Under the pieces are notes generated by a model. That model ran no database searches and had not been told where the DNA came from. It saw only the letters and a list, made by a program, of their open reading frames with translations. From assembly GCA_913061365.1 (NCBI GenBank), contig CAJXUT010000005.1, positions 1 through 37,804 on the forward strand: a stretch of DNA of 37,804 nt, written 5' to 3'. The position numbers and the translations under genes are program-made. The DNA comes from an uncultured Colwellia sp. (GTDB taxonomy: Bacteria; Pseudomonadota; Gammaproteobacteria; Enterobacterales; Alteromonadaceae). Below, piece after piece: positions 5,626-34,627 of this stretch (within the stretch, counting starts at the first letter, position 1; each line of letters begins with the position of its first letter).

Positions 5626-5856
5626 CTATAAGTTAGCAACATCAATTCTATTTTCAAGATTACTTTCTAAAGCCGCTTTACGTTCACGCTCTTGACGTTT
5701 TTCACATGGATTATCGCAGTTACACTCTTTATCAATTCCAACACTTGCTAAGCCTCCACAGCTACCTGCAAGCGTCTTCTTCTGAAAAATATACCCTACA
5801 GCCATAGCTGCGCCGATAAGAAGAAAAAAGACAAAGGTAATTAAAAAAATCATCAT
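5626..5856 (-). CDS. nqrM: Na+-NQR maturation protein NqrM
   Basis: Short TM protein with SCGGLASVGIDKECNCDNPCEKR cysteine motif of the NqrM/DUF539 family; lies downstream of nqr/apbE. Confidence 0.92.
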   Translation of the reverse strand: MMIFLITFVFFLLIGAAMAVGYIFQKKTLAGSCGGLASVGIDKECNCDNPCEKRQERERKAALESNLENRIDVANL

Positions 5857-6008
5857 AATGCGTTATGCCTATTACTAATTTACTTTATTGTTAGACTACC
5901 AGACATAAATATAAACATTGTCGATAATCAGATTTGTTATTTAAGAACTACAACGACTGCTGTGTATTCTACATGAATATTCAGTCTCTGTATTTTTGAT
6001 ACTTAGTC

Positions 6009-7043
6009 TTACTTTAAATATTGTTTAAATTTTACCGTAAACTGTTCGCTAAAGCCATGCTCTGTTTTAGAAATAAACAAAGCTGCAATGTTATTTTTTA
6101 TCGCAAATGCCATTCCTTTTTCAGTTCCCATTACCATTAACGTCGTTGATAAGCCATCTGCTGTCATCGAAGAAGGATCAATAACCGTAACGGACACAAG
6201 ATTATGATCTATAGGTTTTCCGGTAGCAGGATCTATAATATGAGAGAAACGATGTCCATCAGCTTCAAAATAATTTCGATAATCACCCGAAGTTGCCACT
6301 GCATTATCTTTTGGTATAACAATCTGATGTACTGCTCTTTCTTCACCAGAAGGATCTAAAATAGGCTTTTCAATAGCAATAGCCCAGAGTTCACCTGTAT
6401 GTTTAAACCCTTTTAAGCGCATTTCCCCGCCGATTTCTACTAAATAGTTTGTTATGCCATTCGCTTCAATTAACTCAGCGACAATATCCACACCGTAGCC
6501 TTTTGCTATGGTTGATAGGTCGATATAAAGGCTTGGTATATCTTTAGATAGTTGCTGACCATCTAAATGCAAATTCTTTAAGCCTATTCTTGTTAAAGTT
6601 GCTGCTAGTAATTCTTCGTTTGGTGCTTTTTCTGGTCGTTGTTCAGGACCAAATCCCCATAAATTCACTAACGGACCCACCGTAATATCAAGCTTCCCCT
6701 CACTTAATTCGCCTAAACGAATCGATTCCTTTAAGACCCGAGCAAAACCAGCGGATACCTCAAAGTTTTCTGAAGAGGAAGATTTATTAAACCGTGATAT
6801 CTCTGAATTGGGAATATAAGTCGACATTTCTTGATTGACTTGCTTGAGCACTCCATCAATTTTTTGTTGTAGTTTTAAATTTGTTACCTGCTCAGGCGTT
6901 GCGACGACTTTGATATTATAAGTCGTTCCCATAGTACGCCCTTGCAATAGAATCTCACTTTTCGGCGAATTATTACTAGGAAAACAAGCGGTGATACTAA
7001 TAGATAAAATCACTATTAGCATTAATTTGATATTGTTCATCAT
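6009..7043 (-). CDS. apbE: FAD:protein FMN transferase ApbE (lipoprotein)
   Basis: LLQGRTMGTTYNIKVV, DLSTIAKGYGVD, GGEMRLKG motifs; lipobox-like SITAC. The ORF-track start at 7052 is probably too early; ATG codons at 7040 or 7043. Confidence 0.93.
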   Translation of the reverse strand: MMNNIKLMLIVILSISITACFPSNNSPKSEILLQGRTMGTTYNIKVVATPEQVTNLKLQQKIDGVLKQVNQEMSTYIPNSEISRFNKSSSSENFEVSAGFARVLKESIRLGELSEGKLDITVGPLVNLWGFGPEQRPEKAPNEELLAATLTRIGLKNLHLDGQQLSKDIPSLYIDLSTIAKGYGVDIVAELIEANGITNYLVEIGGEMRLKGFKHTGELWAIAIEKPILDPSGEERAVHQIVIPKDNAVATSGDYRNYFEADGHRFSHIIDPATGKPIDHNLVSVTVIDPSSMTADGLSTTLMVMGTEKGMAFAIKNNIAALFISKTEHGFSEQFTVKFKQYLK

Positions 7044-26971: not shown

Positions 26972-28402
26972 ATGAAAACTCTTTTTACAAAAATGAATGC
27001 TTTACTGCTTACTATCCTCATACTAAGTGGCTGTAGTGCTAACTCATTTAATGACTTATTTAGTAGTTACAGTCAACAAATGAGGGGCGTAAAGCAGGCT
27101 CAAAATCAAGGAAACTTCCAGCAAGCCATTAGTTTAATACCAAAACGTAGTAGTCATGATGGTAGCTATAATTTAGGGTTATTAGAAAAAGCACGTTTAG
27201 AGTATTTAGCAAAGAATAACAATCAAAGTAGAAAAGGTTTTGCTCATGCTTATGAGCTTATCGAACAAAGCCAACAACAAGCTAAAATAGAACTTAGCCG
27301 TGGCCTTGAAAATGTCGCTGCCATTGTAAGTAACGACAACGCAGTACGCTATGATATTCCGTTGTATGAGCAAAGTATGCTCCATAGTTATCAAGCATTG
27401 AACTATATCACGCAACAAGACTTATCTGGTGCTTTGGTAGAAGTAAGGCGTGCCAATCAAGTTCAAGAAAAAGCATTAAAAGCGAATAGCGATAGTATTA
27501 ACAAAAGTCTAGCAAATGCCAATAATGAAAAGTTCAGTATAGATAACCTACCGCAACAATATCCCAGTATGAACCGTACTATTGGTGACGTGAAAAATGG
27601 CTTCCAAAATGCCTATACTTTTTACCTATCCGCTTTATTGTATGAAAGCGCAGGACAACCAAATGATGCTTACATTGATTTCAAAAAAGCATTAGAGATT
27701 TATCCCGATAACCACTATTTACAACAAGACGTATGGCGCTTAGCAAAGGCTTTACAAATGACTGACGATTTAGCTTTGCTTAAATCAACATTCCCCAGAA
27801 CTATTACGAAGAAAAATAAGCATAATAATAATCAGGGCAAAGTTATTTTTATTGTTGAAAACGGTATCGTAGAGGCTAAACAAGAAACATCGTTAAGTCT
27901 CCCTATTTATACAAGCCATAATGATGTTCGTTTATATAATGTTGCTTTACCTAGTTATTCTAACCAGTTAACCGTTTATTCCCCTTTAACACTTACTTAT
28001 CAGGGTAAACATTATCAAACAGAAGAAATTGTTCGATTACAATCATTAGCGGCGAAACAACTACAAGATAAACTGCCCGTTATTATCACCCGACAAATAA
28101 CACGCTTAATTGCTAAAGAAGAAATAAGACAAACATTAGCAAGGAAAGGTGGCGATATCGGCAATATATTCGCAAATATTTACAACATTGTTACTGAAAA
28201 AGCTGATACAAGAAGTTGGAGTACCTTGCCTGATAGTATTCAAATTTTAACGCTTAATTTATCCGCTGGCCATCATATGCTTAATATAGATATTAATGGT
28301 GTAAATAAACAAATTGAAGTATCCATAAACAAAAATAGACAAACATTAGTCACACTAAACTCCATCGGCGCTTATGTTGACTATAGTGTATTCAATCTAT
28401 AA
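26972..28402 (+). CDS. COG3014-like TPR-containing lipoprotein
   Basis: Lipobox ILSGCSA; N-terminal TPR-like helices; operon with YcfL/LpoB-like genes. Confidence 0.7.
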   Translation: MKTLFTKMNALLLTILILSGCSANSFNDLFSSYSQQMRGVKQAQNQGNFQQAISLIPKRSSHDGSYNLGLLEKARLEYLAKNNNQSRKGFAHAYELIEQSQQQAKIELSRGLENVAAIVSNDNAVRYDIPLYEQSMLHSYQALNYITQQDLSGALVEVRRANQVQEKALKANSDSINKSLANANNEKFSIDNLPQQYPSMNRTIGDVKNGFQNAYTFYLSALLYESAGQPNDAYIDFKKALEIYPDNHYLQQDVWRLAKALQMTDDLALLKSTFPRTITKKNKHNNNQGKVIFIVENGIVEAKQETSLSLPIYTSHNDVRLYNVALPSYSNQLTVYSPLTLTYQGKHYQTEEIVRLQSLAAKQLQDKLPVIITRQITRLIAKEEIRQTLARKGGDIGNIFANIYNIVTEKADTRSWSTLPDSIQILTLNLSAGHHMLNIDINGVNKQIEVSINKNRQTLVTLNSIGAYVDYSVFNL

Positions 28403-28433
28403 CACAAACCTATGATTACGAGGAGATAACACT

Positions 28434-28895
28434 ATGTTATTTATTAAAAAAGTATCACTACCCTTGGTGTTGTTTATATCAACTTTACTTATTAGTGCTT
28501 GTCAAAATATACCACCAGTAACTTCAGGTATAGGCAGTACAGAACTGAGTCCATCACAAAAGTATGAACAACACTTACAGATAGATAATAAAGAATTAGC
28601 AAAGCGAGTTCATATCAGCGATCTCAAATCACGCAAACAAAATGATTTTTTACAAGTCAATTTGAGCCTTACAAGTACGTATGAGAAATCATTACAACTG
28701 CAATACCAATTTGTGTGGTTCGACCAAAATGGTTTTATCATTGAAGCAGACAAAACGCCTTGGCAGCCGTTTGAACTGCACGGTATGCAAACCAAAACAG
28801 TTACGAGTTTAGCACCAACGCCACAAGTTGCTAAATTTAGCTTTTATGTACGAGAAGTTCCTGAAAAGTTCTATAAGTACAACTCAACAAATTAA
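28434..28895 (+). CDS. YcfL-family (DUF1425) lipoprotein
   Basis: Lipobox LISACQN; LQYQFVWFDQNGFIIEADKTPWQPFELHGMQTKTVTSLAPTPQVAKFSFYVRE is YcfL-like. Confidence 0.82.
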   Translation: MLFIKKVSLPLVLFISTLLISACQNIPPVTSGIGSTELSPSQKYEQHLQIDNKELAKRVHISDLKSRKQNDFLQVNLSLTSTYEKSLQLQYQFVWFDQNGFIIEADKTPWQPFELHGMQTKTVTSLAPTPQVAKFSFYVREVPEKFYKYNSTN

Positions 28896-28926
28896 ATAAA
28901 TTATTACTCCCATAAAGGACAATATT

Positions 28927-29529
28927 ATGAATAAACTACTTATGACCGCCAGCTTTAGCCTAGCTTTAATTGCATTAGGTGGATGTACAAACAAATCTGT
29001 CGTTCGTTATGGTGATGCCACAGCCGTTGAAACGACTAATATTAACTTTGGCTCAACTGATTTACAGAAAGTAGCAAGCCAAATGACAGACTCTTTACTG
29101 ATCTCCCCTGTTGTTGGTACCTTAACAGCGAATACACGCCCAATATTATTTGTTGAAAGTATTAAAAACAAAACTAGTGAGCATATTGATACTGAATCAA
29201 TCACTGATTCGATATCAACTAAATTATTACGCTCTGGTAAGTTTCGCTTTGTTGATATGGCTCGAGTTGCAGCAGTAAGGGAACAACTAAACTTTCAACA
29301 AAGTGGTGGCTTAGTCGATTCAAGTAAAGCAATAGCATTTGGTCAACAAGTTGGCGCGCAATATATGCTTTACGGTAATTTATCTAGCATAGTGAAATCG
29401 AATAAAGATAAGTCTGATGTATATTACAAGTTCACATTACGCTTACTAGACTTAAAAAGCGGTTTAGTAGAATGGGCTGATGAGACTGAAATACGCAAAA
29501 CAAAAGAGAAAAAACTAGTTAGCTGGTAA
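28927..29529 (+). CDS. lpoB: LpoB-like penicillin-binding protein activator lipoprotein
   Basis: Lipobox LGGCTN; LFVESIKNKTSEHIDTESITDSISTKLLRSGKFRFVD...QVGAQYMLYGNLSSI...LRLLDLKSGLVEWADETEIRK. Confidence 0.8.
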   Translation: MNKLLMTASFSLALIALGGCTNKSVVRYGDATAVETTNINFGSTDLQKVASQMTDSLLISPVVGTLTANTRPILFVESIKNKTSEHIDTESITDSISTKLLRSGKFRFVDMARVAAVREQLNFQQSGGLVDSSKAIAFGQQVGAQYMLYGNLSSIVKSNKDKSDVYYKFTLRLLDLKSGLVEWADETEIRKTKEKKLVSW

Positions 29530-29538
29530 GGAGGTTAC

Positions 29539-30015
29539 ATGAAAGCGATATCACACACCCTGTTAGCATTATGTTTATTATTTTTTTATTCCACTGATAG
29601 CTATGCTAATTATGACCGAAACAAGGCTGTGCCTGTAGAAAAGGTGCTTTTTGGCAAAGTAATCACTGTACGTAACATCAATCATGAAGAGTTAATACGT
29701 GACAAAAATAATGGTTGGCATAATTTTGGTGGGGCGCTTCTTGGTGGGGTAATTGGTCACCAATTTGGCGATGGCAGTGGTAGAGATGTTGCTACCATAC
29801 TTGGTGCTATTATTGGCGGTTCTATTGCAAATGATAGACAAAAACAACCGAAGAAAAAGATCACTTATTTAGTTGAGTTAATGATAGAAACTGAAAAAGG
29901 TGAACAGTTTATGGTACTACAAGATTATGATAGAACGATGGTTTTTCATGCCAATGACAAGATCAGAATGATCTATCTAGCTAACGATACCGTAAGAATT
30001 GATAAACAAAGATAA
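29539..30015 (+). CDS. Glycine-zipper (SlyB-like) envelope protein
   Basis: Signal peptide ...YSTDSYAN; GGALLGGVIGHQFGDGSGRDVATILGAIIGGSIAND glycine-zipper segment. Confidence 0.75.
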   Translation: MKAISHTLLALCLLFFYSTDSYANYDRNKAVPVEKVLFGKVITVRNINHEELIRDKNNGWHNFGGALLGGVIGHQFGDGSGRDVATILGAIIGGSIANDRQKQPKKKITYLVELMIETEKGEQFMVLQDYDRTMVFHANDKIRMIYLANDTVRIDKQR

Positions 30016-30038
30016 ACAAAGATAAACAAAGATAAACA
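30001..30038 (+). repeat. 10-bp tandem repeat (GATAAACAAA, about 4 copies)
   Basis: gataaacaaa gataaacaaa gataaacaaa gataaaca; overlaps the preceding gene's stop codon. Confidence 0.9.
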
Positions 30039-30124
30039 GGCACGCTTAACATTGAATAAGTAGTTGAGTGAAAACAATGACAATATTTCTATTTTAACTT
30101 TTACTAAAATATGAAAATGCTCAA

Positions 30125-30181
30125 ATGTTTATCACTCTTCTGCTTATGTTTATCACTTTTCTGTGATAACTCTGTGATAAA
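30125..30181. promoter_or_regulatory. Cluster of TTATCAC/GTGATAA half-sites
   Basis: TTTATCAC at 30128-30135 and 30149-30156, then GTGATAA at 30163-30169 and GTGATAAA at 30174-30181; function not known. Confidence 0.4.
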
Positions 30182-30515
30182 TACATTGAAACCTGTAAAA
30201 AAAGACATTGTTGAAGAAAAAATTCGACTAATTTTTTAAATCTGCTCAGTTTATCTCAATGCTCACAATCAATTTTTCAAAAATATTGTTTCTGTAACAC
30301 CCCATAAATAAATGGGATAAAAAGCCGTATAACAAACACTCCAACAGATATATTCAAGATTAAATTTACCTAAACCAGCGGTAATAAATCAAGTGCGTTT
30401 TTTAATTAATCCTTCGCTAAAACAGCCGTTTAAGAATTGTTATACTTTCGTGATACATAATTTTTTTTCTCTTTGTAAACTAAAGTTGAAATAATTTAGC
30501 TCACAAGGAAAAAAC

Positions 30516-31352
30516 ATGAAACTCTTTAAAGTAGCATCTGCGGTTGCATTAGCTTGTTCAAGCTCGGTGTTAATGGCACAAACAATTGACATTACAATTA
30601 CCAACCTTACTCATGCTCAGAACTTCACGCCGCGTTTAGTGATAGCTCATGATAGTTCAGTAGACGCTTTTGAGCCTGGTGTAGAAGCAACAAGCGCTTT
30701 GGCATGGCTTGCAGAAGCAGGTGTAATTGACGATGCACAAAATGCAGCATCTTCAGGGCAAAATTTTGAAGCACTTTTAGGTCCTACAGATACAGATAAT
30801 ACAAGTAATACTTGGCATCGTTTTGGCGGCTTAGTCGCTCCTTCTACAACCTCAGCATCATATTCATTTGATACTTTAGATAAACCTTACCTTTCAATTC
30901 TTACCATGTTAATCCCTACAAACGATGCATTTGCAGGTTTAGATAGCATTGAAATTCCAACAACTCCTGGCACGTATACTTATATGCTAAATGCATACGA
31001 TGCCGGAACCGAGCTAAATGACGAATTAAATAGCACGCGCACCGATATTGTAGAACAAGACACCGGTAACGCACTAGGTGGCTACGGTGTTCCTGGCGTT
31101 GCTGGAGTGGGCGCATCACCTGTAGCTTTAGGTGTAGGTGGAACAGGTGTTGCAGTAAAAGTTGGTTTTGCTGTTGACGGTTCTGCAATCGGTGCCAATG
31201 AAGTTGTTGACGGAACAGACGGTCCAGTACACATTCATAGAAATATTCTCGGTGATACCAGCTTAACTGATGGCGCTAGTGATTTGCAATCAACCGAACA
31301 CCGTTGGTTGAACCCTGTTGCTCGAGTAACCATTACTATCCCAGCACCTTAA
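30516..31352 (+). CDS. Secreted spondin domain-containing protein
   Basis: Signal peptide ...VLMAQ; ITITNLTHAQNFTPRLVIAHD...LTMLIPTNDAFAGLDS...YDAGTELNDE...VHIHRN...HRWLNPVARVTI, bacterial Spondin_N pattern. Confidence 0.88.
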   Translation: MKLFKVASAVALACSSSVLMAQTIDITITNLTHAQNFTPRLVIAHDSSVDAFEPGVEATSALAWLAEAGVIDDAQNAASSGQNFEALLGPTDTDNTSNTWHRFGGLVAPSTTSASYSFDTLDKPYLSILTMLIPTNDAFAGLDSIEIPTTPGTYTYMLNAYDAGTELNDELNSTRTDIVEQDTGNALGGYGVPGVAGVGASPVALGVGGTGVAVKVGFAVDGSAIGANEVVDGTDGPVHIHRNILGDTSLTDGASDLQSTEHRWLNPVARVTITIPAP

Positions 31353-31369
31353 TTTAGGGAGAACAGATC

Positions 31370-32191
31370 ATGAATATGAACAAAATAAACCTAGCGCTAT
31401 TACCCCTTATTGCCGTATTAGTAACTGGCTGTGGTGATGACGGCAAGGATGGTGCTCCTGGTCCTGCTGGCGTTGCCGGAGTTGACGGTACAGATGGTGT
31501 TGATGGCATTGACGGAGCTAATGGTAATCTTGCTGTTTTCACGGTGCAATTAACTAACCTAACTTACAGTCAACCATTTTCACCAGCAGCAATAGTTTTA
31601 CATGAGCCTGGTTATAACATTTTTATTGACGGTGAAAAGGCAAGTACAGCTTTAGAAGTACTTGCTGAGTCAGGTAACCCTAGCGATATCATTACCGAAG
31701 CAATAGCAACAACAGAGTATTTAGATGCAATTGCTAGTGACGGCGCAACTGCGCCAAGATCTATAGGCAATGTATCAACGTTACTAGTGCCCTTGTTAGA
31801 TGTTGATGATTTAAAAATCAGCCTAACAACAATGTTAGTAGATACAAATGATGCATTTACTGGTTTAAACGCAGCCGACATTAGTAATATGGCAGTGGGG
31901 CAATCTGTTAGCTTTATGGTGCCTTCGTGGGATGCTGGTACAGAAGCAAACACAGAAACAGCTAGCACAATACCAGGACCAGCAGCCGCTGCTGCCGGTG
32001 GTGGTGGAGCAAGTGCAGGTTTTGATGCTGCACGTGACGATCTCTTCGATCGAGTTCATTTTCACCCCGGCGCTGTGACTAATGCGAATGCTGATGACGC
32101 CAGTAAAGAAGGGTTAAGTACATCAATATTAACAGAAGCTGATCGTTGGGATAATCCAACATCAAAAATTGTAATAACACGTACGCGTTAA
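31370..32191 (+). CDS. Spondin domain lipoprotein with collagen-like Gly-X-Y segment
   Basis: Lipobox VLVTGCG; ten Gly-X-Y triplets (GDDGKDGAPGPAGVAGVDGTDGVDGIDGAN); spondin-like LTNLTYSQPFSPAAIVLHE, DTNDAFTGLN, WDAGTEANTE, VHFHPG. Confidence 0.85.
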   Translation: MNMNKINLALLPLIAVLVTGCGDDGKDGAPGPAGVAGVDGTDGVDGIDGANGNLAVFTVQLTNLTYSQPFSPAAIVLHEPGYNIFIDGEKASTALEVLAESGNPSDIITEAIATTEYLDAIASDGATAPRSIGNVSTLLVPLLDVDDLKISLTTMLVDTNDAFTGLNAADISNMAVGQSVSFMVPSWDAGTEANTETASTIPGPAAAAAGGGGASAGFDAARDDLFDRVHFHPGAVTNANADDASKEGLSTSILTEADRWDNPTSKIVITRTR

Positions 32192-32196
32192 TTAAA

Positions 32197-32229
32197 GTGA
32201 GTATATGCTCGTTAAGAGTAGATACTCAC
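32197..32229. other. Inverted repeat/stem-loop 3' of spondin lipoprotein gene
   Basis: GTGAGTAT (32197-32204)/ATACTCAC (32222-32229) with an inner CTC/GAG pairing. Confidence 0.6.
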
Positions 32230-32251
32230 CAGTGTATAAAACAAGTATATA

Positions 32252-32274
32252 AAGCCACCTTTCGGTGGTTTTTA
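32252..32274 (+). terminator. Rho-independent terminator after spondin genes
   Basis: AAGCCACC-TTTC-GGTGGTTTTTATTT. Confidence 0.85.
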
Positions 32275-32390
32275 TTTACAATTACCTCAACAAAATAGAA
32301 CAAATTTACCCAGTACCAAGTACACTATTAGCGAATAATATTTATATACAAATGAACTAGGCTTTCGCTCAGGTAAATTAGGGTACAAAG

Positions 32391-33149
32391 ATGAAAGATA
32401 AAATTTTAATTGTTGAAGATGAAACAGACATCGCCAACTTAATTCAAGTGCATTTGACAGAATTAGATATCGACAGTGATATTTGCTCTCATGGTCAACA
32501 GGCACTTGAACTAGCTTTGAATCAAAACTACCAACTTGTGATGCTTGACGTCATGTTGCCGGGTATGAATGGGCTAGATATTTGTCGCCAACTTCGCCAA
32601 ATAAAGCCTTTACAAGCCATCTTAATGTTAACGTCTAAAACCTCTGAAACTGATAGAGTTCTCGGTCTTGAATTAGGCGCAGATGATTACATGACAAAGC
32701 CTTTTAGTATTCGCGAATTACAAGCAAGAGTTCGTACTCAACTCAGACGAGTACATGCATTAAGTGATAAAAGTAAAACTGAGTTTGCTTCACAAAATGA
32801 AACAAGTCAATCAGGTCAAAATGAAGTACAAAGTAGTAATAGTACTTGCATAGGACAATTGTTAGTTGATCATCGTTATCACCAAGTAACTTATAAAGAC
32901 AACGTAATTAATTTAACATCAACAGAGTTTGAGCTTTTAGGCTTTCTTTGTAAAAACCCTGACCAAGTTTTCTCTCGTGCTCAGCTTCTTGATAGTGTTT
33001 GGGGTTATAACCATAGTGGTTATGAACATACAGTTAATTCGCATATCAATCGCTTACGTAACAAATTAGAAGAAGATTGCGCTGAACCTCAAATAATTCA
33101 AACTGTCTGGGGCGTGGGTTATAAATTAAATTCTAAAGGAGTTTACTAA
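32391..33149 (+). CDS. OmpR/PhoB-family response regulator
   Basis: ILIVEDETDIANLI, LVMLDVMLPGMNGLDICRQLR, LGADDYMTKPF; winged-helix HINRLRNKLEE...VWGVGYKL. Confidence 0.95.
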   Translation: MKDKILIVEDETDIANLIQVHLTELDIDSDICSHGQQALELALNQNYQLVMLDVMLPGMNGLDICRQLRQIKPLQAILMLTSKTSETDRVLGLELGADDYMTKPFSIRELQARVRTQLRRVHALSDKSKTEFASQNETSQSGQNEVQSSNSTCIGQLLVDHRYHQVTYKDNVINLTSTEFELLGFLCKNPDQVFSRAQLLDSVWGYNHSGYEHTVNSHINRLRNKLEEDCAEPQIIQTVWGVGYKLNSKGVY

Positions 33150-33151
33150 GT

Positions 33152-34627
33152 ATGCTTTCACTTTATCAACGCCTTGCTTTATCTGTTTGTTGCGCCTTTA
33201 TCCTCATCGCATCATTACTTTTTTATTGGAGTAACTCCCTAGCTGAGCAATCAAAGTTTCAAGCCGAACAAAAGCTTCATATAGAGCTTGCTGCACATTT
33301 AGCTCATGATAACCCATTACTACAAGATGGTGTTTATGATAAAAAAGCCTTAGAAAACTTATTTCATTCATTAATGATACTAGGCCCTTCTTTTGAATTC
33401 TATTTCTTAGATCCTGCCGGCAATATCATTACTTACTCAGCTGATCCAAGTAAAATAAAGCGTCAATCTGTTGAACTAAGCCCCTTAGTTGCTTTAATTG
33501 CTAATCCTGAAGCAGTTCCTATCTTTGGTGATGATCCTCGTAATATAAACAAACAAAAGATATTTTCTGCCGCGCCTATTTATCGCGGTGAAAATTTACA
33601 AGGTTATCTTTACGTTATCATTGGTGGTGAAATTTATGACTCTATTTTTGACCAAGTTAAAAATGATGTAAATTTACAGCAATACAGTACATTACTCATT
33701 GGTACATTATTACTATTATTACTCATGCTTCTTGCTGTTTTTCGCTATTTCACTAGCCCTATTAAAAAACTTGCAACAGACATGCAATCGATTAAAGCGG
33801 CTCAATTTGATCAATCGAAAGTGTCTTTAAGCCAATGGCAACAAGGTAAAAATAATGAAGTTCACCTGCTTGGTACTACCTTTAGAGAAATGGTTACACA
33901 AATTAATTCACAGTTAGCTCAGTTAACAGAAAATGATCGTATTCGACGTGAATTACTAACACACTTATCCCATGACCTACGTACTCCATTAGCGACTATG
34001 CAAGGCTATATTGAGACAATGGTAATTAAAGGAGATAACCTTTCATCACAAGAACAAACTGAATACCTTGCAACAGCCCAACGAAATGCTATGCAGTTAA
34101 AGCGCTTAATAGATCAAATATTTGAATTAGCTCACTTGGAAGATGGTCAAGTTACAGTGAATCTAGAAACCTTTGCTATTGGTGAGTTACTCCATGACAT
34201 CATGGCAAAATTTGCACTTAAAGCAAAAAGTAAAAATATTCAATTATCATTACAACCTCAACAATGCCGTTTTATTGTGTATTCAGATATTGCAAAACTT
34301 GAACGTATTATTACCAATTTATTAGAAAACGCACTTAGACATACAAATGAAGGTGGAGAAGTTGCCATCATTGTCAGTCAGTTAACAGATAAGGTAAAAG
34401 TGGCTGTAACAGATAATGGTTCTGGCATCAGTAAAGAAGATATCGCTTACATTTTTGATGCTAGATATCGTGCTAGCAATGCGATTGAGGATAGCACCCC
34501 TCATGCGGGGCTAGGATTAGCAATCAGTCAAAAATTAAGTAGAATTTTAAACTCTGAATTATTGGTAGATAGCCAGTTAGGCTTAGGTAGTAATTTTTCT
34601 TTATCATTACAAAGAGTAAAGCACTAA
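33152..34627 (+). CDS. Sensor histidine kinase
   Basis: Two TM segments, HAMP-like region, HLSHDLRTPLATMQGYIE H-box, NLLENALRHT, DNGSGISKEDI, HAGLGLAISQKL. Confidence 0.95.
   Translation: MLSLYQRLALSVCCAFILIASLLFYWSNSLAEQSKFQAEQKLHIELAAHLAHDNPLLQDGVYDKKALENLFHSLMILGPSFEFYFLDPAGNIITYSADPSKIKRQSVELSPLVALIANPEAVPIFGDDPRNINKQKIFSAAPIYRGENLQGYLYVIIGGEIYDSIFDQVKNDVNLQQYSTLLIGTLLLLLLMLLAVFRYFTSPIKKLATDMQSIKAAQFDQSKVSLSQWQQGKNNEVHLLGTTFREMVTQINSQLAQLTENDRIRRELLTHLSHDLRTPLATMQGYIETMVIKGDNLSSQEQTEYLATAQRNAMQLKRLIDQIFELAHLEDGQVTVNLETFAIGELLHDIMAKFALKAKSKNIQLSLQPQQCRFIVYSDIAKLERIITNLLENALRHTNEGGEVAIIVSQLTDKVKVAVTDNGSGISKEDIAYIFDARYRASNAIEDSTPHAGLGLAISQKLSRILNSELLVDSQLGLGSNFSLSLQRVKH

Follow-up and report, generated by a model that had tools for sequence, protein, structure and literature searches.

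A tandem spondin pair and an adjacent two-component system as a candidate envelope oxidative-damage response in Colwellia and other Gammaproteobacteria

The locus described here lies in a stretch of 37,804 nucleotides from an uncultured Colwellia sp. (GenBank assembly GCA_913061365.1, contig CAJXUT010000005.1, positions 1 to 37,804 of the forward strand), referred to as a whole as the window. It contains genes for a secreted spondin (S1), a lipoprotein spondin (S2), a response regulator (RR) and a sensor histidine kinase (HK), the last two forming a two-component system (TCS). An earlier note on this DNA had placed the four open reading frames (ORFs) on the same strand within 30516-34627 (+), and all were recovered at the positions it gave (Table 1). 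The core of its proposal, that the spondin pair has a dedicated TCS, was strongly supported by gene neighbourhood, by co-occurrence and by a common promoter motif.

Table 1. Coordinates of the spondin locus and associated features in the window.
Feature	Position	Strand	Description	Match or basis
S1	30516..31352	+	Secreted spondin, F-spondin domain, without lipobox	NF038123, 175.8 bits
S2	31370..32191	+	Lipoprotein spondin; short collagen-like GXX stalk 3′ of lipobox	NF038123, 148 bits
RR	32391..33149	+	OmpR/PhoB-family response regulator	Response_reg + Trans_reg_C
HK	33152..34627	+	Sensor histidine kinase, periplasmic Cache-like domain at about residues 29-178	HisKA + HATPase_c
Predicted RR box pair, exact	30163..30178	+	GTGATAACTCTGTGAT, 11-bp period, 353 bp 5′ of S1	Sole exact pair in window
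Predicted RR box pair, degenerate	30439..30454	+	GTTATACTTTCGTGAT, 1 mismatch, 77 bp 5′ of S1	Position matches boxes of L117 and most relatives
Putative imported segment	30466..32184	+	Both spondin genes and about 50 bp of promoter	DNA homology, trees, AU test
Terminator-like stem-loop	32255..32277		CCACC-TTTC-GGTGG; T-runs flank it on both strands	Sequence

Both spondins matched the NCBIfam model NF038123, 'spondin domain-containing protein' (cut-off 40 bits). Matches to the Pfam family Spond_N (PF06468) were weak (26.8 bits for S1 and 32.8 bits for S2, with a cut-off of 24), and the match of S2 to the Collagen profile (20.6 bits) was below the family cut-off. The lipobox of S2 reads VTGC; a lipobox was present in 58 of 61 S2 homologues as opposed to 2 of 62 S1 homologues, and the pairing of a secreted with a lipid-anchored spondin is kept across relatives.

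The AlphaFold2 model of S1 had a mean pLDDT of 71, with values of about 85-95 through most of the core, and in Foldseek it retrieved human F-spondin (3q13, E 7e-10) and mindin (3d34) and no other structure below E 0.001. The S1 sequence alone gave no meaningful match in the PDB, and an alignment profile was required. The Ca2+ ligands of crystalline F-spondin are D325, D354 and the main chain of D358, situated in the motifs PSPDW and DAGTD (PMC3117680). The motifs TNDAF and DAGTE, which had been noticed previously in both bacterial proteins, proved to be real and to correspond to these two, in that the profile alignment set bacterial P-TND-F and DAGTE on the ligand positions of F-spondin. Residues D137, D162 and E166 of S1, aligned to D325, D354 and D358, respectively, were invariant in 59 of 59 aligned sequences. 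Since the ligand positions align to those of F-spondin and are invariant, the bacterial spondins are likely to bind Ca2+. Fold and PSPDW/DAGTD-type motifs with Ca2+ ligand residues are the same as in F-spondin and mindin; unlike these, the bacterial proteins are single-domain, occur as a secreted and a lipidated partner, lack reelin_N and TSR domains, and are encoded next to a TCS.

The homology of this fold to the extracellular-matrix proteins F-spondin and mindin, together with the secretion signals and the collagen-like stalk of the window S2, would be in keeping with spondins that are surface adhesins or matrix proteins, under a TCS that regulates attachment or biofilm. An animal role does not follow from fold homology, however, and the earlier note's suggestion of an adhesion or matrix pathway was not borne out by the neighbour tallies, in which no adhesion, biofilm, pilus or polysaccharide family recurred beside the four genes or after the promoter motif. 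We regard this explanation as remote.

The domain content of the regulatory genes (receiver and winged helix in RR, HisKA and HATPase in HK) and their pairing identify an OmpR/PhoB-type TCS. The predicted phospho-acceptor positions, D53 of RR and H274 of HK, were invariant, and the recognition helix of RR (EHTVNSHINRLR) hardly varied among 94 regulators from the whole class. The highest-scoring NCBIfam equivalogs listed for RR all fell short of their cut-offs. The periplasmic part of HK was predicted to be a Cache-like alpha/beta domain; it had no Pfam match over the cut-off (best dCache_1, E 0.01) and no solved relative in the PDB by sequence. Met75 of HK was invariant in 96 of 96 homologues; this is compatible with oxidant sensing but is no proof of it.

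A gene-neighbourhood survey, which the earlier note had called for, placed the association of spondins with this TCS far above chance. Spondins were encoded in 62 of 100 relatives (counting the window genome), mostly as a tandem pair with an HK orthologue nearly always directly 3′, and S1-S2-RR-HK was the sole conserved block in more than 50 loci of relatives, the flanks varying by genus. In a set of 369 genomes sampled evenly over the class, spondin and kinase sensor domain occurred together in 45 (about 11 expected), spondin only in 17, sensor only in 23 and neither in 284 (Fisher p 1e-26, a value that ignores shared ancestry). The two were within 4.5 kb of each other in 31 of the 45 co-occurring genomes. 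Four gene orders were seen across the class: S1-S2-RR-HK, S1-RR-HK, RR-HK-S and divergent. In an independent collection, kinase and spondin adjoined each other at 53 of 80 loci, in Colwellia, Thalassotalea, Pseudoalteromonas, Shewanella, Alteromonas, Gilvimarinus and other genera. Two variants of the locus were also observed. At L122 (genome G024, about 5840-6955) a deletion had removed the remainder of S1 together with S2, RR and the beginning of HK, leaving an in-frame fusion of a spondin N-terminus to a kinase C-terminus. In the Alteromonas group (L163, L326, L327), window-type spondin pairs had, in place of the usual TCS, a divergent OmpR regulator belonging to a different subfamily.

The regions 5′ of S1 contained tandem direct repeats, GTGAT-N6-GTGAT, with the 11-bp period expected of OmpR-family regulators. 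An exact box pair lay within 400 bp 5′ of S1 on the same strand at 43 of 62 loci, whereas 0.07 would be expected from the rate elsewhere; the 43 fell among the approximately 52 loci with an adjacent TCS, compared with none among 9 loci without one. Across the class the motif was mostly positioned 20-120 bp 5′ of the leading spondin gene; in operons that begin with RR it preceded RR. Spondins distant from the TCS also had boxes (L315, L125, L128). The motif itself, how widely it recurs and the constancy of the recognition helix suggest that RR binds these repeats.

If so, RR could act 5′ of S1 whether or not the four genes share a transcript. This bears on the earlier note's concern that a terminator between S2 and RR might uncouple the pair from the TCS genes. 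The stem-loop with its T-run is indeed present (Table 1), although the concern about uncoupling is answered by the predicted RR boxes; the terminator scan reported this stem-loop on the minus strand only, and such sites were overall not commoner than in shuffled sequence. The gap between S2 and RR was 199 bp in the window and at most 61 bp in 36 of 52 loci elsewhere, so the window spacing is a local peculiarity. In most relatives the short gap implies that RR is likely to regulate its own gene as well, and the terminator may make the window locus an exception to this self-control.

Further candidate targets of RR emerged from a three-box search of the whole window genome. The best other match lay 57 bp before an ORF of 460 residues, which combines MsrA, thioredoxin-like and MsrB domains and whose N-terminus is signal-like. 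Boxes with at most one mismatch preceded this MsrA-Trx-MsrB gene in 11 of the 12 TCS-bearing genomes that have it, the window genome included (2 mismatches in the remaining one), and at one mismatch in none of the 6 TCS-less genomes that have it. Most 2-mismatch matches in the window genome fell inside genes and resembled noise. In G076, which has the kinase and no spondin, two overlapping perfect sites stood before a secreted fusion of MsrA and MsrB. G061 had perfect boxes 5′ of a catalase-family (SrpA-like) peroxidase gene, with cytochrome b561 next after it, and a site with one mismatch 5′ of YceI; elsewhere the motif also preceded DUF1223. MsrA, MsrB, DUF1223, AhpC/TSA-type, thioredoxin-like and Met-rich secreted proteins were neighbours of spondin-less kinases, more often than of control genes from the same loci. 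The previously proposed role in envelope sensing was supported and could be narrowed towards oxidative damage: Msr, peroxidase and thioredoxin-like genes recurred by the kinase or 3′ of the motif, and RR may control periplasmic oxidant-repair genes.

Two further observations were made in these neighbourhoods. A family of small secreted proteins carrying GRGTGPVVYVTSQGLYYDS (L223:3092-3448, L305:1351-1716, L310:2043-2417), with no Pfam match, was found next to the kinase or behind the motif; its members lie 3′ of boxes in G053 and G088 and adjoin the kinase in G458. At L200:5026-5661, a lone spondin gene was found beside an NrsF anti-sigma homologue.

The spondins of the window and its TCS appear to have different histories. 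RR and HK were 85-89% identical to those of the two nearest relatives, compared with only about 45% for the spondins, making the window the sole such outlier among all close pairs. DNA homology to L117, a locus of another genus, spanned 30466-32184 at 76% identity, and homology to L114, of the same genus, was broken over 30009-32274 except for 127 bp and resumed at 32274. The window S1 grouped with those of Colwellia polaris, Colwellia sp. DT_21 and BRX10-3, whose kinases were only about 50% identical to that of the window, and grouping of S1 with its own relatives was rejected by the AU test (p 4e-50). Because the spondin trees and DNA homology conflict with the kinship of RR and HK, the comparison indicates that the spondin pair came as a cassette from another lineage and was placed under the resident regulator. 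There is a slight possibility of mis-assembly, the genome being in 373 contigs, but this would require two matching joins.

The exchange also bears on the alternative that the TCS senses envelope Ca2+ or the surface or LPS state, with the spondins as ligand-carrying accessory proteins or as outputs (a three-component system in the manner of QseG-QseE or CpxP) and the Msr genes secondary. Invariant Ca2+ ligand positions, conservation of both the secreted and the anchored partner, and spondins that nearly always adjoin the kinase are what this alternative would predict, and an outer-membrane lipoprotein acting as a kinase accessory protein has precedent (PMC12691602). Yet S1 and S2 were exchanged for a 45%-identical pair while RR and HK were retained, which fits poorly with tight kinase contact; that spondins can be swapped under a fixed kinase argues against their being its specific ligands. 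Moreover, spondin-less kinases neighbour oxidant-repair genes, not Ca2+ genes. We consider this alternative unlikely.

Several observations weigh against coupling of the spondins to an oxidant-repair TCS. The spondin pairs of G061, G066, G082 and G090 had no adjacent TCS, and in G066, G082 and G090 no close kinase orthologue was found. Some spondins in the class-wide set were boxed without this kinase (L163, L191), and the motif could belong to another regulator that was inherited with the module. In the window itself the box pair proximal to S1 is degenerate and the exact pair is the distal one. G018, which is TCS-less, retained two boxes before MsrAB (2 mismatches over three boxes), and since the other five TCS-less controls belong to other genera, the contrast in Msr motifs may partly reflect phylogeny. 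Redox enrichment beside the spondin loci was weak in comparison with the control, consisting of rubrerythrin, thioredoxin-like proteins, SCO1 and one haem peroxidase. Finally, the motif and regulon tests were designed after the data had been seen.

Genomes in which only one of the two, spondins or TCS, is present could also be read as the remains of an old operon whose genes and motif stayed together without functional coupling, with spondins serving an unrelated purpose, for example the binding of nutrients or metals. The four gene orders, the boxes before unlinked spondins and a spondin swap that left the TCS in place point instead to kept regulation, and we judge the old-operon account very improbable.

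The organization of the locus has one published antecedent. L-amino acid oxidases release H2O2. At the L-amino acid oxidase locus of Pseudoalteromonas luteoviolacea, two Spondin_N genes, an OmpR regulator and a kinase are drawn in the same order (PMC6316408, Figure 8). That paper assigned the genes to a putative L-amino acid oxidase operon, and gave no function, motif or wider survey. A literature search on bacterial spondins returned nothing relevant beyond PMC6316408, and in the literature searched no description was found of the TCS, the motif or a bacterial spondin function; the spondin-TCS regulon appears to be undescribed so far.

Related regulatory systems were compared with the spondin TCS. 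In E. coli the TCS HprSR controls MsrPQ, linking envelope oxidants to periplasmic methionine sulfoxide repair. The spondin TCS is predicted to work likewise, as an envelope-oxidant-responsive TCS with periplasmic methionine sulfoxide repair, but has another kinase and sensor, secreted MsrA/MsrB in place of the molybdoenzyme MsrP, another operator, and spondins in addition. Membership of HprSR/MsrPQ was rejected, as RR scored 154.6 bits against the HprR cut-off of 353 and an MsrA/MsrB fusion, not MsrP, followed the motif. The kind of system, a TCS for envelope oxidant repair, is thus known from E. coli; its sensor, operator and spondin output are not. SigF/NrsF, with MsrP and MrpX, is an oxidant-induced system of periplasmic Msr and Met-rich proteins; its output resembles that predicted for the spondin TCS, but it is under sigma/anti-sigma control, not that of a TCS. 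The operator of enterobacterial CreBC is TTCAC-N6-TTCAC. CreBC likewise has an OmpR-family RR with 11-bp direct repeats, and CreB was the second-best NCBIfam match of RR; the repeated element is GTGAA for CreBC and, as predicted, GTGAT for the spondin TCS. The scores of RR (213 against the CreB cut-off of 273) and HK (124 against the CreC cut-off of 356) placed the pair outside CreBC.

The four genes probably constitute one functional module, an envelope oxidative-damage response with the spondins as effectors. In the proposed mechanism, the periplasmic Cache-like domain of HK would sense a signal tied to envelope oxidative damage, and HK would phosphorylate RR as is known for the family. RR would then bind the tandem GTGAT-N6-GTGAT repeats upstream of target promoters and presumably activate, rather than repress, the spondin operon (in most genomes probably including the RR-HK genes) and genes for periplasmic oxidant repair or removal, chiefly those for the motif-preceded secreted MsrA/MsrB. 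S1 would be released to the periplasm or outside and S2 lipid-anchored in a membrane, both acting as Ca2+-binding C2-like domains, as fold and ligand residues predict. With the help of Ca2+, the spondins may then attach to the anionic surface of the envelope and stabilize or shield it during Msr repair. This would be their most likely action, but it is the least certain step, and our confidence in it is far below that in the regulon. A role as Met-rich oxidant sinks was considered and set aside as not general: S1 homologues had a median of 4% Met against 2.1% in other proteins, but the window S1 had only 0.8%.

The lipoprotein genes immediately upstream (26972-30015, LpoB-like and others) were rejected as part of the module, being conserved with it only in a few close relatives. 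RR-type boxes were nonetheless seen 5′ of a CsgG/LpoB-like lipoprotein operon in G039 (L299:1448-2470), and the window has its LpoB-like genes just 5′ of the spondins. At the contig end (37600-37804, minus strand) the window carries FeoB without its N-terminus. The final bases of the contig translate as ILFVGSVRCV, and L248 ends in GSEMCIRDS; both resemble read-through into a sequencing adapter.

Spondins are widespread in bacteria, occurring in 62 of the 369 genomes sampled from the class, and the literature searched offered no known function for them. We hold tentatively, at a little under an even chance, that the module represents a class-wide gammaproteobacterial envelope oxidative-stress response with a Cache-like kinase and a GTGAT operator, in which Ca2+-binding spondin pairs would be swappable surface-protecting effectors while the regulator stays. 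The conserved regulator, the predicted operator and the predicted co-regulated repair genes open the role of bacterial spondins to experiment in marine species that can be cultured. They also provide a candidate pathway for envelope oxidative stress whose sensor is of a new type.

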